From Singulisphaera sp. GP187 (GTDB lineage Bacteria > Planctomycetota > Phycisphaerae > Phycisphaerales > SM1A02), in NCBI GenBank assembly GCA_945871915.1, contig CAMBXO010000005.1, forward strand, positions 1-64,000: 64,000 nucleotides of DNA. The letters run 5' to 3'. Position 1 is the stretch's first letter. Each line of letters opens with the position of its first letter. The notes beneath the pieces were generated by a model. It was not told the DNA's origin. It saw only the letters and a list, made by a program, of their open reading frames with translations, and searched no databases. Positions 6,621 through 59,478 of the stretch are shown piece after piece. The translations under genes and the position numbers were made by a program.

Positions 6621-7504
6621 GCCGCGCTGAATTGGTTCGAGTGACCGAAGTCGGTCCGCGCGACGGATTGCAGAATGAAGACGGGGTCGTTTCGGTCGCC
6701 GACAAAGTTGCGTTCGTCAATGCATTGATTGCTGCGGGGTTTCCCGAGGTTGAAGTCACCAGCTTTGTCAGCGCCGCGCGCGTGCCGCAATTGGCTGATG
6801 GCGCCGACGTGATGCAGCGCGTGCAGCGGCGAGCGGGAACACTGCTGTCGGTCTTGGTTCCTAATGAGCGGGGTTTGGCGGCGGCCCTTGAGGCGAAGGC
6901 TGACAAGGTTTCCGTTTTTGTAAGTGCAAGCGAGGGCTTCAGTCAGAAAAATGTGAATGCGTCGATTGATGTGTGTTTGCAGCGGCTTCGGCCCGTTGTG
7001 CAGCAGGCTCGAGCGGCGGGGCTTCCGGTTCGCGGATATGTGAGTTGCGTGGTGCGATGTCCCTTTGACGGAGCGGTGCAACCGTCCAGTGTGCGGCGAG
7101 TGAGTGAGCAACTGCTTGAAATGGGCTGCACCGAAATCGACTTGGGTGACACGATCGGTGCGGCGGAACCGGAACACATTTCTTGTCTACTGGCCGCAAT
7201 GCAGTCGCTATGCGAGCCGGCGTTACTTACGTTGCATCTGCATGACACGGCTGGCAAAGCCGCCGCGTGCGTGGAGCGAGCGTTGCAGTGCGGCCTTCGA
7301 AGTTTCGATAGCAGCGTTGGGGGTTTGGGTGGCTGTCCGTTTGCACCTGGAGCCCCTGGAAATATTGCAACTGAAACGCTGCTTGCCACGCTGGAACGCC
7401 TTGGATTTCGCCACGGTATTGACCAAGCCGCCGTGGCTGCGGCAGGTGGTGCAATGCGTGAAACCTTGAAACGAGTCCAAAGGGCGTCTGCTGGAAAGTC
7501 CTAG
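6617..7504 (+). CDS. Hydroxymethylglutaryl-CoA lyase
   Basis: HMG-CoA lyase of the DRE-TIM metallolyase family, cleaving HMG-CoA to acetoacetate and acetyl-CoA in leucine catabolism. The N-terminal substrate/metal loop GPRDGLQNE is at residues 13-21, the metal-binding LHLHDT near 208-213, and the catalytic-cysteine loop GGLGGCPFAPGAPGN near 234-248. The 295-residue length is normal. No other leucine-degradation genes are in view. Its start overlaps the small membrane-protein gene, so it is the third gene of a coupled ygfZ-small protein-lyase run. Confidence 0.9.
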   Translation: MSRAELVRVTEVGPRDGLQNEDGVVSVADKVAFVNALIAAGFPEVEVTSFVSAARVPQLADGADVMQRVQRRAGTLLSVLVPNERGLAAALEAKADKVSVFVSASEGFSQKNVNASIDVCLQRLRPVVQQARAAGLPVRGYVSCVVRCPFDGAVQPSSVRRVSEQLLEMGCTEIDLGDTIGAAEPEHISCLLAAMQSLCEPALLTLHLHDTAGKAAACVERALQCGLRSFDSSVGGLGGCPFAPGAPGNIATETLLATLERLGFRHGIDQAAVAAAGGAMRETLKRVQRASAGKS

Positions 7505-7531
7505 AGGGTCGGACTTCGAGTTTCAAAGGCA

Positions 7532-7560
7532 TTGGAAGAAACGCAGGATTTGGTTACACT
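7532..7560 (+). promoter_or_regulatory. Predicted sigma-70-type promoter of rpsR
   Basis: TTGGAA (7532-7537) and TACACT (7555-7560) are separated by exactly 17 bases, about 62 bases before the rpsR start. Position and spacing fit a housekeeping promoter. The call is by eye only. Confidence 0.5.
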
Positions 7561-7572
7561 GCACGGCTCGTC

Positions 7573-7591
7573 GCCTCCGAACGTCGGAGGC
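7573..7591 (+). promoter_or_regulatory. Perfect hairpin in the rpsR 5' leader
   Basis: GCCTCCG (7573-7579) pairs perfectly with CGGAGGC (7585-7591) around the 5-base loop AACGT. It lies between the predicted transcription start (about 7567) and the rpsR start codon and is not followed by a T-run. It may be an autoregulatory ribosomal-protein leader element. Confidence 0.5.
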
Positions 7592-7622
7592 TCTCACCAT
7601 CGAGAACCAGGACGCACACACT

Positions 7623-7838
7623 ATGTCACAGTTCAACGCACCATCCGAACGCCGCACGATCAAGGGCCCAGTCGATTACAAGAACGCGGACGAATTGCGC
7701 CGCATGATGACCGGCAACGGGAAGATCATTGGCCGCAAGCGACTTCAGTTGCCAGCAGGCGAGCAGAAGATTCTTGCAGTCGCCATCAAGCGTGCTCGCC
7801 ACATGGCCTTGCTGCCATTCACGAACGCAACAAGTTGA
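7623..7838 (+). CDS. rpsR: 30S ribosomal protein S18
   Basis: Small-subunit protein S18 (71 aa), which pairs with S6 on the platform of the 30S subunit. The family signature is clear in the second half: GKIIGRKRLQLPAGEQKILA, then the basic helix IKRARHMALLPF. The gene stands alone: the usual partners rpsF and rplI are not in this window. It has its own predicted promoter and a hairpin leader, and it is convergent with a TPR gene. Confidence 0.92.
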   Translation: MSQFNAPSERRTIKGPVDYKNADELRRMMTGNGKIIGRKRLQLPAGEQKILAVAIKRARHMALLPFTNATS

Positions 7839-7851
7839 ATTTGGAAGTGCG

Positions 7852-7888
7852 TCACGCGCAGGTTGCCACGGCTGTTTCGTGCGCGTGA
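7852..7888. terminator. Inverted repeat between convergent rpsR and TPR genes
   Basis: TCACGCGCA (7852-7860) is exactly complementary to TGCGCGTGA (7880-7888) across a 19-base loop, in the 50 bases between two convergent stop codons. No long T-run follows, so this is a candidate bidirectional terminator or RNA end-protecting hairpin. Confidence 0.4.
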
Positions 7889-9247
7889 TTACCCAACGCG
7901 CTGGAAGCCCACCAACCGCAGGGAACGCGTGATCCATATGCGCACCCACAAGCGTCGCAATCCGGCATCTCTGGGATGGTCAGCCAAACCACGTCGCACC
8001 CAGGATTGGGCTTCAGACAATGTGCCTTGCTGCAATGCAGAGAGTGCAAGGTTGTACGCCGCTGCACGATCGGTGGAATCCACCTCGTGCAGCGACCGAC
8101 TGGCTTGATCGCCACCCGGTAAATCGTGCGATTCGTACCTGCTTCGTGCAAGGCGACGCAGCACCGCAGCGTCTTGGGCGCATGCAGGAAAGCGAAGAGC
8201 GGCGGTAAGCGTGCGAGCGGCCAATTCTGGTCGGCCGGCACGCAACATAAGGTCGGCAAGTGAGAGAGCGGCCTGCGGTTGATCCAGCCGAGGGTCACTC
8301 TCTGGTGGAACCCGCTCAGCGTGGATTTCCAGAAGTCGGGCGGCTTCGTTGAATTCGCCTCGTTCCAGTTTCGCGTGCGCCAATTCGATGCGAAGCGACG
8401 GATTCTCTGAATCCAAACGCAGGGCGTGTTCGAGTTCGATGCAAGCTTCATCGAGTCGCCGCGCCCCAAGAGCCAGCGAGCCCACACGCCATCGGGCCTC
8501 GGCACTTTCAGGATCCAGTTCAACGGCCCGGCGAAATTTTTCGGCCGCCTCGGGAACGCGGCTCATGCGCACCAGCACATCTCCAAAGGCAAGCCATGCA
8601 TGCACATCGCCTGGGTGGTGGCGCGTTTCTTCCGTGAGCAATTCAATGGCACGATGCGGCTGCCCGCTGTCGGCGGCAATCTGCGCCAATTGCACACGCA
8701 CTCGTGCAAGGGCTGGTTCCAGTCGAAGCGCTTCACGCAAACTCCATGCAGCTCGATCTCGTTTGCCTTCAGCAAGCAAGACCGCCGCCATGGCTTGAAG
8801 CGAAGCGGGAGCGGCTTCGACATGCTGTTGCGCCAAGTAAAAGGCAAGGCTTGCATCGTCTAGTCGACCGAGTCGACGCAACGACTCAATGCGGAGTGCC
8901 CACGCGGCGTCGAGGTCAGGCTTGCAATTGGTTGCCTCTTCTGCCCATTTCAATGAAAGTTGCCAACGATCCAGCGCCGCCGCGGCCACCGCTGCGGCCA
9001 CGCGTGGTTCCGCGTGATCTGGTGACCGATCGCTGGCACTCTCGAAACAATGGAGCGCTTCGTCAGTGCGACCAAGCGCCTGAAGAGTGACCCCCAAATT
9101 CATTCTCCACGCGCCGCGTTCGGGCTCAAGTTCGATGGCCTGTCGCAAGAACGATTCCGCATCCGTGAAGCGACCCTTTTGAAAGTGCTCTCGCGCTTTG
9201 TCGATCAGCTGTTCAACGCGATGCTCTGGATCCTGCCACTCGTTCAT
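7889..9247 (-). CDS. TPR-repeat protein
   Basis: A 452-residue soluble protein built almost entirely of tetratricopeptide repeats. Repeat-like units with the W-L-G-Y-A-P pattern recur about every 34 residues, for example FQKGRFTDAESFLRQAIELE near the start and FGDVLVRMSRVPEAAEKFRR mid-protein. There is no signal peptide or enzymatic domain, so it is probably a protein-interaction scaffold. The start at 9247 (MNEWQDPEH) is preferred over an in-frame upstream codon at 9271. Partners are unknown. Confidence 0.8.
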   Translation of the reverse strand: MNEWQDPEHRVEQLIDKAREHFQKGRFTDAESFLRQAIELEPERGAWRMNLGVTLQALGRTDEALHCFESASDRSPDHAEPRVAAAVAAAALDRWQLSLKWAEEATNCKPDLDAAWALRIESLRRLGRLDDASLAFYLAQQHVEAAPASLQAMAAVLLAEGKRDRAAWSLREALRLEPALARVRVQLAQIAADSGQPHRAIELLTEETRHHPGDVHAWLAFGDVLVRMSRVPEAAEKFRRAVELDPESAEARWRVGSLALGARRLDEACIELEHALRLDSENPSLRIELAHAKLERGEFNEAARLLEIHAERVPPESDPRLDQPQAALSLADLMLRAGRPELAARTLTAALRFPACAQDAAVLRRLARSRYESHDLPGGDQASRSLHEVDSTDRAAAYNLALSALQQGTLSEAQSWVRRGLADHPRDAGLRRLWVRIWITRSLRLVGFQRVG

Positions 9248-49479: not shown

Positions 49480-51483
49480 ATGAGAATGCAGATGCGTGTG
49501 CAAGTCCTTTGCGGACTTCTTGTCGCTATTTCCGTCATGGCGGTTGGATTGTCGGTGGCCCGGCTCATGCGTTGGCAACTGGCTGACCAGACAAGCGATT
49601 GGACGGCGGCAATTACGGCCATGGTTGCGAGCGATCTTGAAGAGGATCATCTGACCCCTCATGACTTGGAGGCCGTTCCTGAGTCCGAGGCGAAGGTGCA
49701 TGAACGCTTCGAACGATTGGGCAGAGTCTTAAGCGAAGTCAAAGGCGACGGTGTCACACTCAAACTCTTGGTCCCTGACGCGGATCGGTGGAAAATCCGA
49801 ATGCGAGCCGGAATTCCAATTTCTGGAGCTCGAGTTCTGTCATTCGATCCGCTTTCGGTCACGCCGTTGGAGGGGTCTGAGCCGCTCTCCATGGATCATT
49901 CCGTGACCGGCTGGTACGAAGCGGAGGGGTTGAGGGCATTCGCATCTGCAACACCATTGAAAAACAAGTCGGGAGTTGTTGCCCTCACGATAGGCGACCT
50001 TGTTGTGTCGGAATATCTACAGGCACTCTTTTGGGTGGTGATCGGCGTGATGCTTTTTGTGGTGGGTCTCTCGGTGCCGGTTGCATGGTGGGTTACGCGT
50101 CGACTGGTTAAGCCGATCTCGGCGCTGAGTGACTTTGTCCACCGATTGGATCAGGGAGATTTCCATGCACGACTGGAACCCTTTGGTCCGCCCGAACTCA
50201 AGCGGCTCATGGTGGATTCGATCACCATGGCCAGAAACTTGGAAGACCGTTCATCGCTGGCTCGACATAACAAGCAGCTCTCGCATGAAGTTCATTCGGA
50301 AAAAGAACGCATGGCTGCTTTCGAGGCCACTGAAGTGGACTTCGCCGAACTTGCCGATCTTGACTTGCTCTTACGGCGAACCGTAGAAAGCATTCAGCGA
50401 ACGCTTGGGTGCGAATGTGTGTTGGTGCTTGTCAAAGATGAGAGTGGTCTTGTGGTGTCTCAGGCGAAATGCGATTCCATTCCCGAACTGGCTGCCGCCC
50501 TGCGAGGGCAGTCGCCGGCCGCAGCGGCTTGGGCCATAGATCGCATTGGTGAGTATGAAGAAATTAGATTGGATCAAGCCGCCGAAGCCGGTCTGGATGC
50601 ACTTTCCAACTCTTTGTTCGCCAAAAAACCGCTGTACTGTCTGCCCATGAAATCGGGTGCGGGCGAAGTGCTGGGGGCGTTTGTGGTGGTGGGGCCGAAA
50701 CAGTCGTCGAATGATTCAGAGACAACTTTCACGGATCGTGATGCACAGAGCTTGCGTCACTCCGCGGCGTTTGTTTCCATGGCGCTTGAGCGAAGAGATT
50801 TCACAGATCAATTGTTGTGGAGAATGATCCGCATGGCCGAGACGCGAGATCCTCGTGAGACCGCCGCGCATGTTCGGCGTGTGAGTGGCATTAGCCTTGA
50901 ACTCTTCGATGGCTGGGCACATCGTCACGGCGTGCGAGATGAAGATGCGCAATTTGCTCGCAGTTCGCTTCGAACGGCGGCCATGCTGCACGATATTGGC
51001 AAGGTCGGAATTAGCGATGCCATCTTGAAGAAGCCCGGGAAACTCACCGATGAGGAATACCGGTCCATGAAACACCACACGGTGTTGGCAGCGGCCATGC
51101 TTCCTGGAAAATCTCCGCAAGACGAGGCGTCACGCGAAGTGGCCTTGCATCATCATGAGCGATGGGACGGCTGCGGGTATCCCGGAGCGGTGGATTACTC
51201 CACGGTGGCTGACAATGTGGTTGGCCTGCTTGAGATGCCACTGCCAGAGAAGGGGCTGAAGGGGTATGACATTCCATTGTTTGCACGCATTGTGGCCATT
51301 GCAGATGTGTTTGATGCGTTGAGCAGTCGCCGCGCGTACAAAGAACCGTGGCCGGAGTTCAAGGTGGTGGAGACCATTACGGCAGAGTCCGGCAAGGGAT
51401 TTGATCCCGACTTGGTCGAGATTTTTCTCCAACGCCTTCATCGAATCAAGGCTGTGTGGAGTGCGTATCCGGATCCACAGTGA
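49480..51483 (+). CDS. Membrane HD-GYP domain protein with HAMP and GAF-like region
   Basis: 667 residues. Two membrane segments (about residues 7-30 and 182-210, VVIGVMLFVVGLSVPVAWWV) enclose a periplasmic sensor of about 150 residues. HAMP follows (KPISALSDFVHRLDQGDF). A GAF-like region covers about residues 285-440 (TLGCECVLVLVKDESG). The C-terminal HD-GYP domain has HDIGKVGISDAILKKPG and HHERWDGCGYPG, all key residues intact, so c-di-GMP hydrolysis is plausible. The last 38 bases overlap arnT on the other strand. Confidence 0.88.
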   Translation: MRMQMRVQVLCGLLVAISVMAVGLSVARLMRWQLADQTSDWTAAITAMVASDLEEDHLTPHDLEAVPESEAKVHERFERLGRVLSEVKGDGVTLKLLVPDADRWKIRMRAGIPISGARVLSFDPLSVTPLEGSEPLSMDHSVTGWYEAEGLRAFASATPLKNKSGVVALTIGDLVVSEYLQALFWVVIGVMLFVVGLSVPVAWWVTRRLVKPISALSDFVHRLDQGDFHARLEPFGPPELKRLMVDSITMARNLEDRSSLARHNKQLSHEVHSEKERMAAFEATEVDFAELADLDLLLRRTVESIQRTLGCECVLVLVKDESGLVVSQAKCDSIPELAAALRGQSPAAAAWAIDRIGEYEEIRLDQAAEAGLDALSNSLFAKKPLYCLPMKSGAGEVLGAFVVVGPKQSSNDSETTFTDRDAQSLRHSAAFVSMALERRDFTDQLLWRMIRMAETRDPRETAAHVRRVSGISLELFDGWAHRHGVRDEDAQFARSSLRTAAMLHDIGKVGISDAILKKPGKLTDEEYRSMKHHTVLAAAMLPGKSPQDEASREVALHHHERWDGCGYPGAVDYSTVADNVVGLLEMPLPEKGLKGYDIPLFARIVAIADVFDALSSRRAYKEPWPEFKVVETITAESGKGFDPDLVEIFLQRLHRIKAVWSAYPDPQ

Positions 51484-53149
51484 TGGATCGCAGCGTCAGC
51501 ACGGTAAGACTTCGATCGGTCAACTGGGATTGCACCTGCGTTGAAAATCGTTTGGCAAGGCCTGCCGCACGATCTGTTCCCAACGCGAGTGTGACGGATC
51601 CTTCTGTGAGCCATTGCGGTAACAGGTTGCCCAGTTGTTCTACGCTGATCAGTCGCTGAGACTCTTGGGGAATTCCAAGTTCATTGTCAAATTCACCAGG
51701 GTCACCCAGAATCACGATGTCCGTTCGACCGGAAACCCAACCGATGGAATGTCCCATTGGGTTGATTGCCACCACTCGAATGGAATTTCGTAAGGCATCT
51801 TCCGCTTGTTGCAGAATGTCCCATGGTGCCTTGGTGGGGGAGAGCAGTGCAGTGGGCATGAACACGTGAACGCAGGCCAACAACGGAACGGCGACCCATG
51901 CGGTTCGCACCAGCCATTGCACAGCCGCGGTTGCTTGATGTGCAAACTCGTCAAGCCACGACCACGCCAAGAACACAATTCCAAAGAGAAACCATCGGGT
52001 GGTGGAGTGATCGAGCCAAAGGATTGGAGCCCCCCAATGGAGCCAATCCGCTAGGGCGAATGCAAACATGGCCACCGCCAAGCATCGCACAATCCATTGA
52101 ACCCACCATGTCGCACGGTCACGAGACGTGGAAGTTCCCTCTCGCCACTGCAACAGTCCGATGGACAACATCACAGCGATTGCAGGAAAGAGTGGCAAGA
52201 CATAAGTAGGCAACTTCCCTTTGCTCAGGCTCATGGCCAAGAGTGGTGGAACGATCCAGCACCAGCAAAACCGTAGCCCGCTCCGCAGGGCCAGGTGGCC
52301 GCGGAGTGCTTTCCATGCGCGAGGGGCAATCAGGATCCAGAATGTGCTGCCACCAAGTAGCACCACCGACAGAAGCCACCACGGTTGCAGGTGCTGATTG
52401 CTATCGGGAGACGCGAATCGCCGGACATGTTCGACAAGCACAAAGTAATTCCAAAATTCAGGTTCACTCTGATGCAGTTTCCATGCGAGCGGGCCAGCGG
52501 AGAGTGTTGCCCCAAGCAGTGGAAGCCACGGCATGGTGAACACATCACGCCATCGCTTCTGCCAGCACAGATAAGTAAACGCAGCCAGCGCGGGAATGGC
52601 TAGTCCCAACAGACCCTTGGTCAAGAAAGCCAACCCGGCCGCCACACCGCTGGCCACTAGCCACGCCGCACGCGGTCGGTGAGTGGATTCTGTTGCAACA
52701 AAAAAGAATGCAATGGCCAGCGTGGTCCACGCTGTAAAGATGGAGTCGAAAATCGCAACCGTTCCAATGACCATAGGAAACACCATCGTGAGTTGCACCA
52801 TGGCAGCCAGTGGCGCGGAGACTCGTCGCGAAGTCATTTTCGAAGCCACCATGCCTGCAGCAAGGGCGGTGATCAGTGATGCGATTGCCGATGGGAGTCG
52901 GATGGCAAAGGCGTTGTGCCCAAAGGTGGCCACGCTTGCCGCGATGCACCATGTGCCAAACGGTGGCTTCTCAAAATAGGTGAAGCCCAGCATGCGAAGT
53001 TTGAACCACTCGCCGCTGGCCAGCATTTCGGTGGCCATGGCGCCGTAGCGAGCTTCATCCGGCGTCACCATGGGTCGAGCCCATAGCAGGGCGAGATACA
53101 ACACCACAAAGATCAAGCCGACCTGAATCCACAACCTCCTCTGGCTCAT
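51446..53149 (-). CDS. arnT: Undecaprenyl-phosphate-L-Ara4N transferase-like glycosyltransferase (ArnT)
   Basis: GT-C (GT83) membrane glycosyltransferase that moves L-Ara4N from undecaprenyl phosphate to lipid A. 567 residues with about 12 hydrophobic helices. The catalytic first loop is MVTPDEARYGAMATEMLASG, followed by WFKLRMLGFTYFEKPPFGTW, close to E. coli ArnT. A periplasmic C-terminal part follows. The start ATG at 53149 avoids the extra codon at 53152. Last gene of the arnBCADT run; a generic ArnT/PMT-like transferase is the alternative if it stood alone. Confidence 0.85.
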   Translation of the reverse strand: MSQRRLWIQVGLIFVVLYLALLWARPMVTPDEARYGAMATEMLASGEWFKLRMLGFTYFEKPPFGTWCIAASVATFGHNAFAIRLPSAIASLITALAAGMVASKMTSRRVSAPLAAMVQLTMVFPMVIGTVAIFDSIFTAWTTLAIAFFFVATESTHRPRAAWLVASGVAAGLAFLTKGLLGLAIPALAAFTYLCWQKRWRDVFTMPWLPLLGATLSAGPLAWKLHQSEPEFWNYFVLVEHVRRFASPDSNQHLQPWWLLSVVLLGGSTFWILIAPRAWKALRGHLALRSGLRFCWCWIVPPLLAMSLSKGKLPTYVLPLFPAIAVMLSIGLLQWREGTSTSRDRATWWVQWIVRCLAVAMFAFALADWLHWGAPILWLDHSTTRWFLFGIVFLAWSWLDEFAHQATAAVQWLVRTAWVAVPLLACVHVFMPTALLSPTKAPWDILQQAEDALRNSIRVVAINPMGHSIGWVSGRTDIVILGDPGEFDNELGIPQESQRLISVEQLGNLLPQWLTEGSVTLALGTDRAAGLAKRFSTQVQSQLTDRSLTVLTLRSITVDPDTHSTQP

Positions 53150-53218
53150 CACTCGGCGAGTTTATGCGATGCAATCCGATCAGGCGTTCTGCGGATACTC
53201 CCGGAGAGGATGGCGCGA

Positions 53219-54109
53219 TCAGGGTGCAGCGCCAACGCAGACCCATCCTTCACGACCCGCGATCGCGCCTCGTTTCACATGTCCCGTGGGATACGAGGAA
53301 AATTGCTTGAGCCAATCACAGAGTGGCTCAAAGGTGTGACCGGCAGCGATCGCGGAATCAAGAAATTGCTCAAACAAGGTCGCCTTCACGCCGCCTTCGC
53401 ACTCCGCGTGAATGGTGAGGACATGGGGTTTGTTGTCGGCCATCCGTGCAAGAAGAGACGCGTTCCACTTTGCGTCCGCATCTCTTTCGCGACGAACTCC
53501 CTCGTCGTAGGTGGGCAAGTCCACCGGGACTTGCAATTGCGTCAACGCGGTGCCTTTCACCATCGGGAAAAATGGCGAAGCGATTCCGCGAGCGTCGCTT
53601 CGATAGCGAAAGGCATGGGAGGCTGGCAATGAAAGCAATCGTTCATCCAGCCGCCAGCCCGGAGCCGCAGCGGTTTCGGGTGGGCGGCGGTACACGCGTT
53701 CAAACGCTTCGATGGCTTTGTAAAGTTCGTCCTGCATCGCCGCCAGACTCAGCCGATCGGCACCCATCTGCCAACGGTGGTGATCCCATGCATGCACGCC
53801 TACTTCATGCCCGGCTTTTTCAGGCATGCGAAGCGTGTCAGCCAGATGATCCGAAATCACTGGCCCCGGCCACAGCGTTCCTCGCAACAAAATTTCCCAG
53901 CCATACAGGCTTGGCGCGCCGGAGCGAAGCATTTTGATTGCGAAGGCAGGCTTCAGTAATCGCCACGCATGCCGACCCATATTGTCCGGCCCCAGCGTGA
54001 CATACCACGTGGCCCGGATGCCGCGTTTCGTAAGCGTGTGCAGAAGACGTGGCACGCCGTCGCGTGTGCCGCGAAAAGTGTCCACATCAATACGAAGTCC
54101 AATGCTCAC
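53219..54109 (-). CDS. arnD: 4-deoxy-4-formamido-L-arabinose-phosphoundecaprenol deformylase (ArnD)
   Basis: Polysaccharide-deacetylase-fold (NodB/CE4) metal hydrolase removing the formyl group from undecaprenyl-phosphate-L-Ara4FN. 296 residues. The N-terminal GLRIDVDTFRGTRDGVPRLL is nearly the same as enterobacterial ArnD, with the metal Asp in VDTF. GPDNMGRHAWRLLKPAFAIK and VGVHAWDHHRWQ (His motif) follow. It lies 7 bases after arnA and 69 bases before arnT. Confidence 0.92.
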   Translation of the reverse strand: MSIGLRIDVDTFRGTRDGVPRLLHTLTKRGIRATWYVTLGPDNMGRHAWRLLKPAFAIKMLRSGAPSLYGWEILLRGTLWPGPVISDHLADTLRMPEKAGHEVGVHAWDHHRWQMGADRLSLAAMQDELYKAIEAFERVYRRPPETAAAPGWRLDERLLSLPASHAFRYRSDARGIASPFFPMVKGTALTQLQVPVDLPTYDEGVRRERDADAKWNASLLARMADNKPHVLTIHAECEGGVKATLFEQFLDSAIAAGHTFEPLCDWLKQFSSYPTGHVKRGAIAGREGWVCVGAAP

Positions 54110-54116
54110 GCGTTCA

Positions 54117-56159
54117 TTATCGCTTGTGTGCCGCGGCGGTCGTGGCGGCTGCTCGAACGTGTGGAGTGGCCGTTCCCGATACGGTCAGTCCATTGCTCTT
54201 GGCATGCTGCCGCAGAAACCAATCGAGCGTTCGCTCGACGCTTTGACGCGTGGTGATCGTGGGTTCCCAGCCAAGGTGAGTCTTGGCGTTGCGAATGCTG
54301 GGGCGACGATGCTGCACATCTTCGTAGCCCTGTCCGTAATACCGAGTGCTTTCCACTTCGGCAAAGCCTGCGAAGGGTGGATATAGGTTTCGCAACGGAT
54401 GGCGATCGAAGGCTTCCACCAGCATTTCGGCCAATTCGCGAATGCTGGCCTCATTCACCGGATTGCCAATGTTGAAGATGCGGCCATTGCACGCACCGTC
54501 CTTGTTGGCAATCACTCGCCACAACGCCTCGATGCCTTCGTCCACATCGGTAAAGCATCGCTTCTGCTCACCACCATCCACCAACAGAATGGGCGTGCCT
54601 TCAACAAGATTCAGAATCAATTGCGTGATCGCGCGGCTGCTTCCAATGCGAGCGGAGTCCAGTGAATCCAGCCGTGGGCCGATCCAATTGAAGGGGCGGA
54701 ACAGCGAGAATTGCAAGTTGCGCTGAAAGCCGTAGGCCCAGATCACTCGATCGAGCAATTGTTTGCTGGTGGAGTAGATCCATCGCTGCCGATGGATGGG
54801 GCCGGTCACGCAGGTGCTGGTCTCTTCGTCAAATTCTCCATCGGTGCACATGCCGTACACCTCGCTGGTGCTTGGAAAGACCAGACGCTTTTGAAAGCGC
54901 ACGCAGTCGCGGATCACGCGAAGATTTTCTTCGAAGTCCAGTTCGAACACTCGAAGCGGATTCCGCACATATTCGATCGGCGTGGCAATGGCGACCAGCG
55001 GAAGAATGACATCGCACTTTCGCACATGAAATTCCACCCATTCGCGGTTGATGCTGATGTCGCCCTCGACAAAGTGAAACCGCGGATGATCCATCAGCGT
55101 TCCCAAATTGTCTGAGTTCAGATCCATTCCGAAGACTTCATAGTTCTGATCCTGCAGGATTCGCTCGCTCAGGTGGCTGCCGATGAACCCGTTCACGCCA
55201 AGAATCAGCACGCGGGTTGGTTTGGAACTCTTGGTGCCAACGGAACCCTTGCCGAGTTTCATTTTTGGAACCAGATTGATTTCGCGAGCCAGTTGCTCGC
55301 CGCTTGCCCACAAGCCGTCGGCGGATTGCCCTTGAATAATTTCGATTGCCCCATTGCCGCACGCAATTGAAAGTGGATTCAGCGACAGCACTTCGCCGGG
55401 TGCGCCGGAACCGCGTGCGATAGCACTCTTCCACACAATAAATTTGCGGCCGCTGGCAAAGGTGAAGGCGCCAGGCCATGGATGTGCCACGCCTCGAGCG
55501 AGGTTGTGAATGGATTCCGCGCTGCAACTCCAATCGATTTCGCCATTCTCTGCACCGCGACGACCATTCACGGTTGCCTTGCTTTCATCCTGCGGTGTTC
55601 GCGAAGCCTTGCCTGATTTCACCAGAGGCAACGTCTCATCAAGCAGCGCTTCACTTTCGCGGGCCAACTGATAGGTGAGCGAACGGGCATCGGCCTCCGC
55701 GGCAATGGCGACTCGTCGCTGTGAAATGATGTCGCCGGTATCGGCCTTGTCCCCCATGTGATGCAGCGTGACGCCGGTTTCGTTTTCTCCATGCACCAGA
55801 ACCCAGTTGATGGGGCAACGCCCTCGATGCTTTGGAAGCAGCGAACTATGTAAGTTCAAACAGCCCGCTGGGAACAAGGCTCGAACGGACTTGGGAATCA
55901 AATTTCGATAATGGAAACTCAGCAGCAACTCAGGCTTCATGGCCTTGATGCGCTCAATCCAGATTGGATGATCGAGTTTCTCTGGTGCATGCACCGCAAT
56001 GCCATGTTCGGCTGCAAGTCGCGCCACGCTTGCGTACCAACTGCCCTCGTTGGGATCGTCTCGATGCGTGAACACCGCCACCACATCGAGTTGATTGCGA
56101 AGCGTTGCCCGAAGCGCCGCGGCGCCGATTTCGTGATATGCAAAGACAATGGTGCGCAT
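54117..56159 (-). CDS. arnA: Bifunctional UDP-Ara4N formyltransferase/UDP-GlcA decarboxylase (ArnA)
   Basis: 680 residues, both halves intact. Residues 1-300 are the 10-formyl-THF-dependent formyltransferase: [20 protein letters not shown] near 101, with the catalytic Asn/His pair. Residues about 320-660 form an SDR domain with [25 protein letters not shown], and [16 protein letters not shown] (Y-x3-K). It oxidatively decarboxylates UDP-glucuronic acid and N-formylates UDP-L-Ara4N. Coupled to arnC (12 bases) and arnD (7 bases). Confidence 0.93.
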
Positions 56160-56171
56160 GAATGGGTTTCC

Positions 56172-57152
56172 TTAGGAGTGAACGCGGTCGTGCGTCGTGC
56201 GAGTGGGTTCGCCGAGTGTTTCGCCCACGATCCGATCGAGAATGTAGCGGGGGCGTTCTCGCACATCGCTATGAATTCGGCCAACATATTCGCCCATCAA
56301 TCCCAGCGCCACAAATTGAGCGCCGACGAAGAAGAACAGAACGGCAAACAGGGTGAAAATTCCCTGCCCGGCCCATTCGGAGCCGTAGGCAAAGCGAAGC
56401 ACCAGCAGCAGGGCACCAAACACAATCGATAGAGACGAAATGCCAAGACCCATCCACGAGAGCAGGCGAAGTGGACCGGCGGTCATGCAGGTGAGCAGAT
56501 CAAATTGCAGATTGATCAGTTTCATAAATGAATACTTGCTGGTGCCAGCGGAACGCTCAGCATGACTGACCGGAATTTCTGTGACGCGCTTGGCAAACAG
56601 ATTGGCCAATACCGGAAGGAATGTGGTTCGTTCTCGGCAGGTCAGCATCGCATCAACCACTTGGCGTCGGTACCCGCGCAACATGCATCCATAGTCATGC
56701 AGGATCACCCCGGTGGAGTGCCGCACCATCAGGTTCACCATGCCACTAAAGAGTTTTCGAAACGTAGCGTCCTTGCGATCACTGCGAACGCTGCCCACCA
56801 CATCAAAGCCCTCATCCATCTTGGCCACAATCCGCCCGATTTCTTCAGGTGGATTCTGAAGGTCCGCATCAAGCGTGATCAGAATGTCACCGTGGGCGTT
56901 GGCAAATCCGCACAGAATGGCATTGTGCTGTCCGGCGTTTCGATACAGCAGTAACGCCTTCACTTCACCGGGATACGCCTGTGCAAAATCAGTCAACATC
57001 TCCGTGCTGCCATCTCGACTTCCGTCGTCTACCAACAGCAGTTCCCACGGGCGACCCAGCGCGCGACCCGCCGCAAGCGTGCGACGCACCAACTCCGGAA
57101 GGTTTTCCCGTTCGTTGTAGACCGGAATCACAATGCTGACGGACGAATTCAT
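56172..57152 (-). CDS. arnC: Undecaprenyl-phosphate 4-deoxy-4-formamido-L-arabinose transferase (ArnC)
   Basis: 326-residue GT2 (dolichyl-phosphate-mannose-synthase-like) transferase attaching L-Ara4FN to undecaprenyl phosphate. The nucleotide-binding site is VVIPVYNERENLPELV at the start and VDDGSRDGST near 42. DADLQNPPEEIGRIVAKMDE is near 98, and two membrane helices form the C-terminus (ISSLSIVFGALLLVLRF, TLFAVLFFFVGAQFVAL). Its ATG overlaps the arnB stop by 4 bases (57149-57152). Confidence 0.9.
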   Translation of the reverse strand: MNSSVSIVIPVYNERENLPELVRRTLAAGRALGRPWELLLVDDGSRDGSTEMLTDFAQAYPGEVKALLLYRNAGQHNAILCGFANAHGDILITLDADLQNPPEEIGRIVAKMDEGFDVVGSVRSDRKDATFRKLFSGMVNLMVRHSTGVILHDYGCMLRGYRRQVVDAMLTCRERTTFLPVLANLFAKRVTEIPVSHAERSAGTSKYSFMKLINLQFDLLTCMTAGPLRLLSWMGLGISSLSIVFGALLLVLRFAYGSEWAGQGIFTLFAVLFFFVGAQFVALGLMGEYVGRIHSDVRERPRYILDRIVGETLGEPTRTTHDRVHS

Positions 57153-58336
57153 CGAAGACCTCCAGCCACCGCCACGCGGCCGCGTGTGTTGGCCAGCGTT
57201 TCCTTGATGGCGTGAATCACATCCATCACATCAGCGTCTTGCATATCCGGAAACATAGGCAAGGTGCAGATGCGTTGGGAGTTCCATTCGGTGTTGGGCA
57301 ACTGGCCCATCCACTGGCCTCGGTTTTCTCGATACCAACGATGCGTGTGGCTGGCAACAAAGTGAATTCCAGTTCCAATGTTTCTGGCCTTCAAGCCCTC
57401 CATCAATTCCGTGCGTTCCATTCCGGATTTTCGTTCGTCCACTCGAACCACAAAAAGGTGGCGAGCGTGCCGATGACTCCACGCAGGATCGGCCAGTGGA
57501 AGAATGCCGTCGATTTCTGCAAGATGAGTGCGATACTGCTGGCTGATCGCTTCGCGGCGTGCGATCAACGCATCAAGCCGGGGCAACTGACGCAACGCCA
57601 GCACGGCATTCATATCTGGCAAGTTCTGCTTGAAGCCGGGTTGCTGCACTTCTGAGGTGGGGCTTCGACCTTGTTGAGCGCGATCGTGCGCATCCAATTC
57701 CAAACCATGGAATCGAAGGCGACGCACCGTGCGTGCCAAGGAGGCGTCGTTGGTGGTGAGCACGCCGCCCTCGCCACTGGTGATGTTCTTGATCGGATGC
57801 AGCGAGAAAATCGCGGAGTCGGTTCCGCCGATCTCGCGACCCTTGTACTGCGTGCCAATGGCGTGCGCGGCGTCTTCCAAAAGTGTCACGCCCTTGGCGC
57901 GGCAGATTGCTCGAATGCCATCAAGGTCTACAGGTGCACCGGCGTAATGCACTGGTATGACAACCTTCGTGCGCGGCGTGATCGCTGCGGCGATGGCATC
58001 AGGGCTTGCAAGGAGTGTGTCGCGATCCACATCTACAAACACATTCGTGGCGCCAAGCAACTCGACCATGTTGGGCGTACTCACCCAGGTCATGCTTGGA
58101 CCCACCACTTCGTCACCGGGTCCAACGCCGAGTGCCTTCAAGGCAAGGTGCATCAACGCCGTGCCGCTGGTTGCAGCGATTGCATGTACGGCACCGGTTC
58201 GCGTGGCGAACGCATCCTCAAGTGCAGCAACTTTTGGCCCCGTGGTAATCCAACCGCTTCGAAGCACCTCACTGATGGCGGCAATGTCCTCTTCGGTGAT
58301 GTTTGGCCTGCAAAAAGGCAGGAAGGTGTTCCGCAT
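57149..58336 (-). CDS. arnB: UDP-4-amino-4-deoxy-L-arabinose aminotransferase (ArnB)
   Basis: PLP-dependent DegT/DnrJ/EryC1 aminotransferase making UDP-L-Ara4N. 395 residues: FLPFCRPNITEEDIAAISEV near the start, SGWITTGPKVAALEDAFA, VVGPSMTWVSTPNMVE, LLEDAAHAIGTQYKG, and the PLP lysine in FSLHPIKNITSGEGG near 195. The start at 58336 (MRNTFLPF) fits E. coli ArnB. A longer in-frame start lies upstream within the Rrf2 intergenic region. First gene of the arn operon, divergent from an Rrf2 gene. Confidence 0.92.
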   Translation of the reverse strand: MRNTFLPFCRPNITEEDIAAISEVLRSGWITTGPKVAALEDAFATRTGAVHAIAATSGTALMHLALKALGVGPGDEVVGPSMTWVSTPNMVELLGATNVFVDVDRDTLLASPDAIAAAITPRTKVVIPVHYAGAPVDLDGIRAICRAKGVTLLEDAAHAIGTQYKGREIGGTDSAIFSLHPIKNITSGEGGVLTTNDASLARTVRRLRFHGLELDAHDRAQQGRSPTSEVQQPGFKQNLPDMNAVLALRQLPRLDALIARREAISQQYRTHLAEIDGILPLADPAWSHRHARHLFVVRVDERKSGMERTELMEGLKARNIGTGIHFVASHTHRWYRENRGQWMGQLPNTEWNSQRICTLPMFPDMQDADVMDVIHAIKETLANTRGRVAVAGGLR

Positions 58337-58498
58337 TCGTCCATAGTAGGGGAATGGCCCCTGTATTTCGAAAGCAACAGGCCGGGGGAGTGAATTTGAG
58401 GCATTTTGTGCTGCAAAGTGCATGGTCTGATCCAAAGCGGTCATAATTCGGATATCCCGCTCTTGATTCTTGAACCGGTTTCCGGTATCCCATTTGCC
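58337..58498. promoter_or_regulatory. Divergent promoter region between arnB and rrf2
   Basis: The 162 bases between the two start codons must hold promoters in both directions. A short ATA-N7-TAT element (about 58443-58455, ATAATTCGGATAT) is an imperfect palindrome that could be a regulator site, but this is weak. Confidence 0.3.
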
Positions 58499-58993
58499 AT
58501 GTACGGCAAGCAAACTGAACGAGCGATCTCGGCCATGAGCCGTCTTGCAGAAGTGTGGGATGGCGGCAAGACCCGGCTTTCGTCTGTGCAGATTGCGGAC
58601 AATCGAGCGTTGCCACGACCCATGGTGGCCAAACTTTTGACGGAACTTTCGCAAGCGGGATTGGTCACCGGTTCGCCAGGGCCCGGCGGGGGTTATGCCT
58701 TGTCGCGACCGCCAAAGGAAACAACGCTGCGGCAGGTTCACCAACTCTTTGAACGAGAAGACCTCAGCCGAACGTGTCCATTTGGTGGCGGCATTTGTGG
58801 GGCCGGGTCACCGTGCCCGATGCATCATCGGCTGGTGAGCATGCGTGAAAGTTTCGACGAGTATCTGAACGGCACCACCTTTGAGTGCTTTCGCGAAGCC
58901 GCGCAAGATCAGGGGCACAAGCCAGCGTTGACTGGTGCAGTCAACGGGCACCGCGAGAGTTGGCGTGCGCCGTTGACTCGCAAAGCGCATTGA
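58499..58993 (+). CDS. Rrf2-family transcriptional regulator, Fe-S type
   Basis: 164 residues. The winged HTH spans about residues 10-65 (RAISAMSRLAEVWDG, IADNRALPRPMVAKLLTELS, GPGGGYALSRPP), typical of IscR/NsrR/RirA. The C-terminal half has three cysteines, CPFGGGICGAGSPCP, at the place where Rrf2 regulators bind an Fe-S cluster. The cluster would let it respond to iron, oxygen or nitric oxide. The start at 58499 (MYGKQTERAI) fits the family. Confidence 0.85.
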   Translation: MYGKQTERAISAMSRLAEVWDGGKTRLSSVQIADNRALPRPMVAKLLTELSQAGLVTGSPGPGGGYALSRPPKETTLRQVHQLFEREDLSRTCPFGGGICGAGSPCPMHHRLVSMRESFDEYLNGTTFECFREAAQDQGHKPALTGAVNGHRESWRAPLTRKAH

Positions 58994-59082: not shown

Positions 59083-59388
59083 TCAATCGCTTTCCGTTTC
59101 AAAGAGCAGGCCTCGCTCGACCACTGTGCGAAACTCTATGGGCCCCGGGAAGTTCTCGTAATCATCATTGGGATGCGTGTGAATCCACTCGACACATTGC
59201 ATCACGCAGGAAAACTGTGCGCGATCCCGCCAATCTTCGCCAAAGATGGTGTTGATACCCAGCCAAATATGTGCGTGGGCATTGCGATGAGCGAGCCCCG
59301 GATGCGGTTCGAGCTGTGATTGAATGGCCTCGGCCACCGCACGAACGCGAGCATTCACATCATGGAGCGAAGGCGATTGCACAGCCAC
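59083..59388 (-). CDS. Small uncharacterised protein
   Basis: About 101 residues with an unusual His/Trp-rich middle (GLAHRNAHAHIWLGINTIFG, then VEWIHTHPNDDYENFPGPIE). No family recognised and no signal peptide. The reading frame looks real because the composition is protein-like and no gene sits opposite. The start is unsure: a GTG at 59388 is chosen, and codons at 59391 or 59382 are possible. Confidence 0.45.
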   Translation of the reverse strand: MAVQSPSLHDVNARVRAVAEAIQSQLEPHPGLAHRNAHAHIWLGINTIFGEDWRDRAQFSCVMQCVEWIHTHPNDDYENFPGPIEFRTVVERGLLFETESD

Positions 59389-59478
59389 CAAAGTACCGCC
59401 ACAAGTCGCCCGAAGTGCAATGCATTGCCGACTCTCCGCGTGGTGGCTACCCTGCGATTCACGTCGGGGGGACAATCA

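Follow-up and report, generated by a model that had tools for sequence, protein, structure and literature searches.

A regulator gene facing the arn operon

The window, i.e., the whole stretch of 64,000 nucleotides that was analyzed, carries a gene for an Rrf2-family regulator (here rrf2) whose left flank is formed by the arn genes (Table 1). The first-pass annotation had proposed a regulator diverging from an arn operon, and this was borne out: the best NCBIfam models for the genes opposite were ArnB, ArnC, ArnA, ArnD and ArnT, all five genes are present and collinear, and only ArnA passes its NCBIfam cut-off. In enterobacteria the arn operon is under the control of PmrAB/PhoPQ, and the order in E. 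coli is arnB, C, A, D, T; the order here is the same, but the operon lies beside an Rrf2 gene. LpxC was detected in the genome (G000), which makes it plausible that the arn products act on lipid A. Position 58337, previously taken as the start of the regulator, proved to be the start codon of arnB, and the regulator starts at 58499. The distance of 162 bases between the two genes presupposes the arnB start at 58337 (161 intervening bases), and it shrinks to 54 bases if the in-frame ATG at 58444 is used. A sigma-70-like or promoter-like match was sought around the rrf2-arnB gap and none was found.

Table 1. Features of the rrf2-arn region (positions are those of the window)
Feature	Position	Strand	Description
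rrf2	58499..58993	+	Rrf2-family regulator, 164 aa, ATG start; PF02082, 82.4 bits
Predicted rrf2 operator	58441..58472		Imperfect 32-base dyad, poor left half; top matrix score of the 64 kb window
ATA-N7-TAT	58443..58455		Inside the predicted operator; once in the window
arnB	57149..58337 (alternative in-frame ATG 58444)	-	Aminotransferase; PF01041, 1.4e-117; best NCBIfam model ArnB, 558.6/631 bits, under cut-off
arnC	56172..57152	-	Best NCBIfam model ArnC, 455.6/529 bits, under cut-off
arnA	54117..56159	-	Bifunctional; NCBIfam ArnA, 1015 bits, cut-off 777
arnD	53219..54109	-	Sole NCBIfam match ArnD, 333.3/382 bits, under cut-off
arnT-like	51446..53152	-	Glycosyltransferase; sole NCBIfam match ArnT, 316.3/567 bits, under cut-off; PF02366

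On its other side rrf2 lies tail-to-tail with a small ORF (59083-59475, minus strand), 89 bases from the rrf2 stop codon. Relatives of this ORF (55-62% identity) occupy the same place in four related loci (L002, L003, L004 and L006), and the copy in L002 gave no Pfam match at 1e-5.

rrf2 is the sole PF02082 match in the whole genome (2.24 Mb in 20 contigs, 98% complete). Its product passes the curated cut-off of that family (30 bits) and falls 1.3 bits short of the cut-off of the NCBIfam Rrf2 superfamily model TIGR00738 (72 versus 73.3 bits). Cys93, Cys100, Cys106 and His109 were invariant in all 62 aligned sequences, and a fourth cysteine, Cys130, was not conserved; this supports the Fe-S-type Rrf2 regulator with three conserved cysteines that had been proposed at this locus. 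As to the further description "IscR/NsrR-like", the product scored 33.2 bits with the IscR equivalog model of NCBIfam (cut-off 207.55) and 23.2 bits with that of NsrR (cut-off 182), and with both cut-offs missed by far it is neither IscR nor NsrR proper.

The ligands of IscR of E. coli are C92, C98, C104 and H107, with the spacing C-x5-C-x5-C. The rrf2 product has in common with IscR the Rrf2 family, the three cysteines and a histidine at +3 from the third of them, and differs in the first spacing, which is one residue longer (C-x6-C-x5-C), and in that its relatives are tied by position to respiratory genes. NsrR of Streptomyces is described as having three cysteines and Asp8 from the other monomer as the fourth ligand (PMC5411485). 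The rrf2 product shares the three cysteines and aligns to NsrR chain 5n07 with phmmer, but the position of Asp8 is occupied by Glu7 (Glu in 51 of the 62 sequences), and His109 is invariant in all 62. On the basis of the three cysteines plus histidine, the ligand set of IscR, and of Glu rather than Asp at the NsrR position, we infer that the rrf2 product would hold a [2Fe-2S] cluster of the IscR type.

Neighbours of rrf2 in relatives and the history of the locus

One scan of GTDB genomes yielded 58 loci with relatives of rrf2, nearly all of them in metagenome-assembled genomes and from Planctomycetota or uncultured organisms, several from Phycisphaerae or Phycisphaerales. Neighbours were assigned with codon-usage gene calls, which missed rrf2 itself in some loci, and the nearest upstream gene was tallied. 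The divergent neighbour was a gene of the CcoN-CcoO fusion cluster, which encodes the low-oxygen respiratory enzyme cbb3 oxidase, in 17 of the 58 loci; in L005, the locus whose domains were checked, Pfam found COX1 and FixO in it, with CcoP and CcoG beyond. Five loci had a co-directed upstream gene from a cluster typed in L056 as NrfD-type and preceded there by Fe-S and cytochrome genes; two more (L042 and L057) had a co-directed one from a cluster that is COX3-type in L057. The arn genes were nearby in four (L002, L003, L004 and L006), the remaining loci had assorted other neighbours, and one of the 58 had no callable neighbour. Respiratory genes are hence the commonest neighbours of rrf2, not the sole ones. 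Control of arn by redox, iron or NO as a conserved arrangement is not supported by the relatives, where rrf2 lies mostly by other genes.

Five of these loci (L045, L053, L054, L056 and L058) have rrf2 directly downstream of a gene set with CXXCH, Fe-S and NrfD-type members (typed in L056), and in four of the five a molybdoenzyme-like ORF (by ORF reading) lies opposite, which suggests another respiratory regulon. In addition, a distant Rrf2-like ORF with 33% identity was observed near ccoN in G026 (L134:567-860, minus strand), so that a link to cbb3 may exist in more than a single Rrf2 branch.

In Acidithiobacillus ferrooxidans an Rrf2 regulator, CtaR, has been proposed that lies next to oxidase biogenesis genes and is hypothesised to act on a terminal oxidase, and clustering of an Rrf2 gene with genes for cbb3 biogenesis is reported for T. 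denitrificans (PMC2754497). CtaR comes from another phylum than rrf2 and is likened to it here by description. MppG is another Rrf2 protein, in the report of which cbb3 is assigned to FnrL and CrpK (PMC4263372).

In a maximum-likelihood tree of 60 rows (L044, L051 and L033b were left out), the five arn-linked rrf2 rows formed a single clade with a support of 100/100, inside a larger clade of 33 rows (98/98) to which all 17 cbb3-linked rows belong. The search of 16 genomes of the genus found arnA (at least 72% identity, whole or partial) in 15 and a close rrf2 (at least 55% identity) in 12, and the two are linked in five, which constitute one subclade: rrf2 and arn share a locus in G000, G006, G008 and G012, and G010 has, at a contig end, a fragment of arnB some 3 kb away from rrf2. 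In the other seven genomes with both arnA and a close rrf2 these are on different contigs, most firmly in G014 (8 contigs), the others being fragmented, and no Rrf2 match was found in the approximately 1.9 kb upstream of arnB in G001, G013, G014 and G015. As compared by tblastn with the full protein, arnB had 80-84% identity within the arn clade and 73-74% in the unlinked members of the genus. A synteny survey had been set beforehand as the test of the proposed link; its outcome speaks largely against a general rrf2-arn link and is compatible with a lineage-restricted control, i.e., a shared control that is possible in a few species and does not amount to a conserved circuit.

Within the genus, cbb3 was found at full length in G001, G004, G014 and G015, and G011 has it split in two. 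It was not found in the arn-linked genomes G000, G006, G008, G010 and G012 (98, 98, 91, 77 and 95% complete, respectively), which gave just 20-22% matches; the best match in G000 (22%) is to another oxidase. The arn-linked loci themselves form a series. In L006 (G010) amt stands opposite rrf2, and beyond it come PII, an SDF symporter and arnB. Two amt ORF fragments (7132-7890, minus strand), the remains of a decaying ammonium transporter for whose first 180 or so residues no match was found, lie between rrf2 and arnB in L002 (G006) and keep them about 960 bases apart. In the window, L003 and L004 the gap is 161 (G000), 116 (G008) and 101 (G012) bases by the called starts, which leaves no room for the amt block. 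This series of an intact block, a broken amt and a short gap indicates that arn most likely became the neighbour of rrf2 through gene loss, and we infer that cbb3 would have gone before the decay and loss of the amt block.

A predicted operator and the search for targets

Upstream regions of rrf2 were submitted to a palindromic EM search from which the arn clade was excluded. The 54 non-arn loci provided 35 regions for training, and 19 were left out, either as near-duplicates or for a short upstream region (L013, L018, L021, L024, L026, L028, L030, L032, L036, L037, L038, L044, L047 and L051) or by choice (L039, L052, L054, L056 and L058). The search returned a dyad of roughly 28 bases, approximately GAATCAcGGA-N8-TCCtTgATTC, with a confident copy in 24 of the 35 regions, including loci with other neighbours, and none in the other 11. 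Its log-likelihood was 216.4, versus 66.6-78.6 in six dinucleotide shuffles and 104.6-134.2 in four further regions taken from these loci (27-35 sequences, with homology shared). The dyad differs from the published NsrR motif, gATGyAT-N5-ATrCATc (PMC1274295). The rrf2 product most likely binds this dyad in its own promoter region.

The gap of the window between rrf2 and arnB contains a predicted operator of rrf2 (58441-58472), a weak version of the dyad, which scored 15.8 bits with the matrix made without the arn clade, the best value of the 64 kb, and 16.8 bits with softer pseudocounts. The latter corresponds to a p of 2.1e-5 per position, i.e., about one site expected per 64 kb of the background used, and the chance of a site of such strength in a gap of about 160 bases is about 0.003 by simple product; the weight of this site therefore comes from its location in the gap and from its recurrence in three other, related, genomes, and not from its strength alone. 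In L002 and L003 the best site of the locus is at -58 relative to rrf2, as in the window, and in L004 the -58 site is second-best, behind a site at -25; L003 also has a strong -25 site. No good -58 site was found in L006, where the amt block is intact and the best site scored 10.7 bits at -17. Four of the five arn-clade genomes thus have the predicted operator on the arnB side of rrf2, upstream of the gene. The ATA-N7-TAT element to which attention had been drawn is indeed present, inside the better supported dyad, but as an operator on its own it was rejected, since it is at chance level (1 seen versus 0.67 expected; one or more in 50 of 100 shuffles).

Promoters of arnB and ccoN away from rrf2 were then scored. 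Left unscored were the arnB of L124, L129 and L131, where arnB reaches or runs off the contig end, and L138, without a CcoN match. The eight arnB upstream regions away from rrf2 (G001, G005, G009, G013-G016 and G058) gave 0.4-12.4 bits, none comparable to the site in the window; the best, at -397 in G014, had a region P of 0.019. Only G001, G013, G014 and G015 bear on the question of arnB, because only these four have a close rrf2. With ccoN away from rrf2, sites were observed in G024 (20.6 bits, region P 0.0048), G035 (14.4 bits, 0.013) and G026 (11.8 bits, 0.023), and no site in G023, G034, G036 and G040, so that the region P was below 0.05 in three of seven. In G024 the close rrf2 is 1.38 Mb from ccoN.

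The genomes were also scanned with a motif model, R1. Its best match was in the cbb3-rrf2 gap in G001, G004, G011, G014 and G015, and its sole match was there in G030 (E 0.084-0.46); G014 and G030 are outside the R1 training, and G001, G004, G011 and G015 are, or resemble, training row L055. There was no match in G005, G009 and G013, which have no cbb3-linked rrf2, nor in G006 and G010, and the ccoN sites of G024 and G035 were not among the R1 matches. In G008 and G012 the single genome-wide match was the rrf2-arnB gap, both sites being in the model training. A full scan of the window recovered 58441-58472 (10.2 bits, E 0.069), its own site being a training row, and the scan of G000, with 150 of 287 candidates scored, gave four weak matches (E 3.2-6.7), the window site not among them. 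An IUPAC pattern of the dyad with at most three mismatches matched in 17 of 18 genomes (0-18 matches per genome and strand, versus 0-2 with the reversed pattern), and among the matches listed is the cbb3-rrf2 gap of G014 (G014:C5:185670). In G000 the pattern occurred at 11 places, with matrix scores of 0.3-14.0 bits, all under the 16.8 bits of the window site, and nine of them fall within ORFs whose coding score is positive. The window site itself escapes the pattern, and this search is hence no proof that other targets are absent from G000; by R1 and the pattern no other target was found there, with searches so insensitive that neither recovers the window site genome-wide.

Several further matches were noted. 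One of the two pattern matches of G000 that fall outside ORFs of positive coding score is L154:1501-1526 (G000:C1:161737-161762), with 10.5 bits, and a strong dyad of 24.2 bits lies in G014 (L176:1501-1532) between phenylalanine-hydroxylase-like and DinB-like ORFs (by ORF reading). L160 and L179 were rejected as R1 sites, being inside coding frames that read as gpsA-like and cysteine-synthase-like. R1 gave 23 matches in G035; the six loci that were scored (L164, L171, L177, L183, L188 and L192) are made up of dispersed repeats of the GGAATCCGG type, which imitate the operator, and the G035 matches were discounted for this reason. The same repeats call for equal caution with the 14.4-bit ccoN site of G035. 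Altogether, cbb3 is the better supported candidate for an ancestral target, and nothing points to arn as one.

Possible control of arn by the regulator

We consider it likely that rrf2 encodes an autoregulated, ancestrally respiratory Fe-S regulator, and that its predicted operator now lies upstream of arnB as a result of gene loss. This rests on data drawn from sequence, namely homology, the conserved cysteines and histidine, synteny, the failure to find cbb3, the decay of amt, the motif and purifying selection. The rrf2 product would be an IscR-like Fe-S regulator and belong to a branch of the Rrf2 family found in Planctomycetota; its ancestral partner at the locus was most likely the divergent cbb3 oxidase operon. 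Depending on the state of its cluster (O2, iron or NO), the product would regulate both rrf2 and the divergently transcribed gene. After the loss of cbb3 in this lineage, rrf2 would have come to adjoin the amt-PII-symporter-arn block, and the loss of the first genes of this block would have left arnB as the gene facing rrf2. The regulator probably retains autoregulation through 58441-58472, and arn may be a new, captured target in a few species, given that about 103 bases separate the end of the operator from the arnB start codon at 58337.

It is quite plausible, though short of probable, that the two are passive neighbours, i.e., that the rrf2 product acts on its own gene, and perhaps on distant genes, and that the control of arn is unrelated to it. 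The site stays at -58 from rrf2 in four arn-clade genomes while its distance to arnB varies, and a confident upstream site accompanies most of the training loci even though the neighbours of rrf2 vary widely. A regulator of itself only is, however, unlikely to persist for long, and G000 offered no other target, albeit in insensitive searches.

More tentatively, the rrf2 product may control arnBCADT in this subclade, in which case the addition of aminoarabinose to lipid A would follow Fe-S status, O2 or NO. This would agree with the predicted operator being on the arnB side in all but one of the arn-clade genomes, with the short gaps of G008 and G012, where an arnB promoter would overlap or abut both predicted operators, with R1 having its single match in that gap in the same two genomes (from sites in the model), and with the presence of LpxC. 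The comparison of rrf2 between L003 and L004 is also consistent with it: dN was 0.014 and dS 0.31, so that rrf2 is under purifying selection, and the genomes of origin have no cbb3 match and no amt in the rrf2-arnB gap. Purifying selection means that the protein is kept and says nothing on what rrf2 regulates; autoregulation plus a captured or other target would explain it. On the other hand, the unlinked arnB promoters lack a comparable site, autoregulation alone accounts for the conservation of the site, and in G006 the amt remnant still separates rrf2 from arnB. A regulatory capture by deletion, with the loss of cbb3 and then of the amt block placing arn under an Fe-S respiratory regulator in a few Planctomycetota species, is accordingly plausible but less likely than not.

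Finally, it is unlikely that the dyad is no Rrf2 operator but a promoter or some other conserved element, because, even though conserved elements upstream of orthologues can be promoters and nearly all the sites are upstream of rrf2, it is symmetric, it scores above shuffles and other homologous regions, a strong copy lies upstream of the distant ccoN of G024, R1 is without a match in the three genomes that have no cbb3-linked rrf2, and the surroundings of the gap contain no sigma-70-like match.

The rrf2 product belongs to a known family; its operator is newly predicted, and its gene lies beside arn, most likely via gene loss, in one small clade. By title or start of abstract, the papers found on Planctomycetes and Rrf2 offered nothing on the control of cbb3 or arn, and those on arn nothing on control by Fe-S or IscR; a search for aminoarabinose in Planctomycetes came back empty. 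The rrf2 family is a candidate regulator of the cbb3 oxidase for Planctomycetota, for which no paper was found at the same depth, and the 28-base dyad provides a specific, newly predicted operator for an Rrf2 regulator. The series in which the block is intact, decaying or gone illustrates how the targets of a regulator may be lost and others come within its reach, and if the capture of arn is true, it would couple the charge of the outer membrane to O2, iron or NO.
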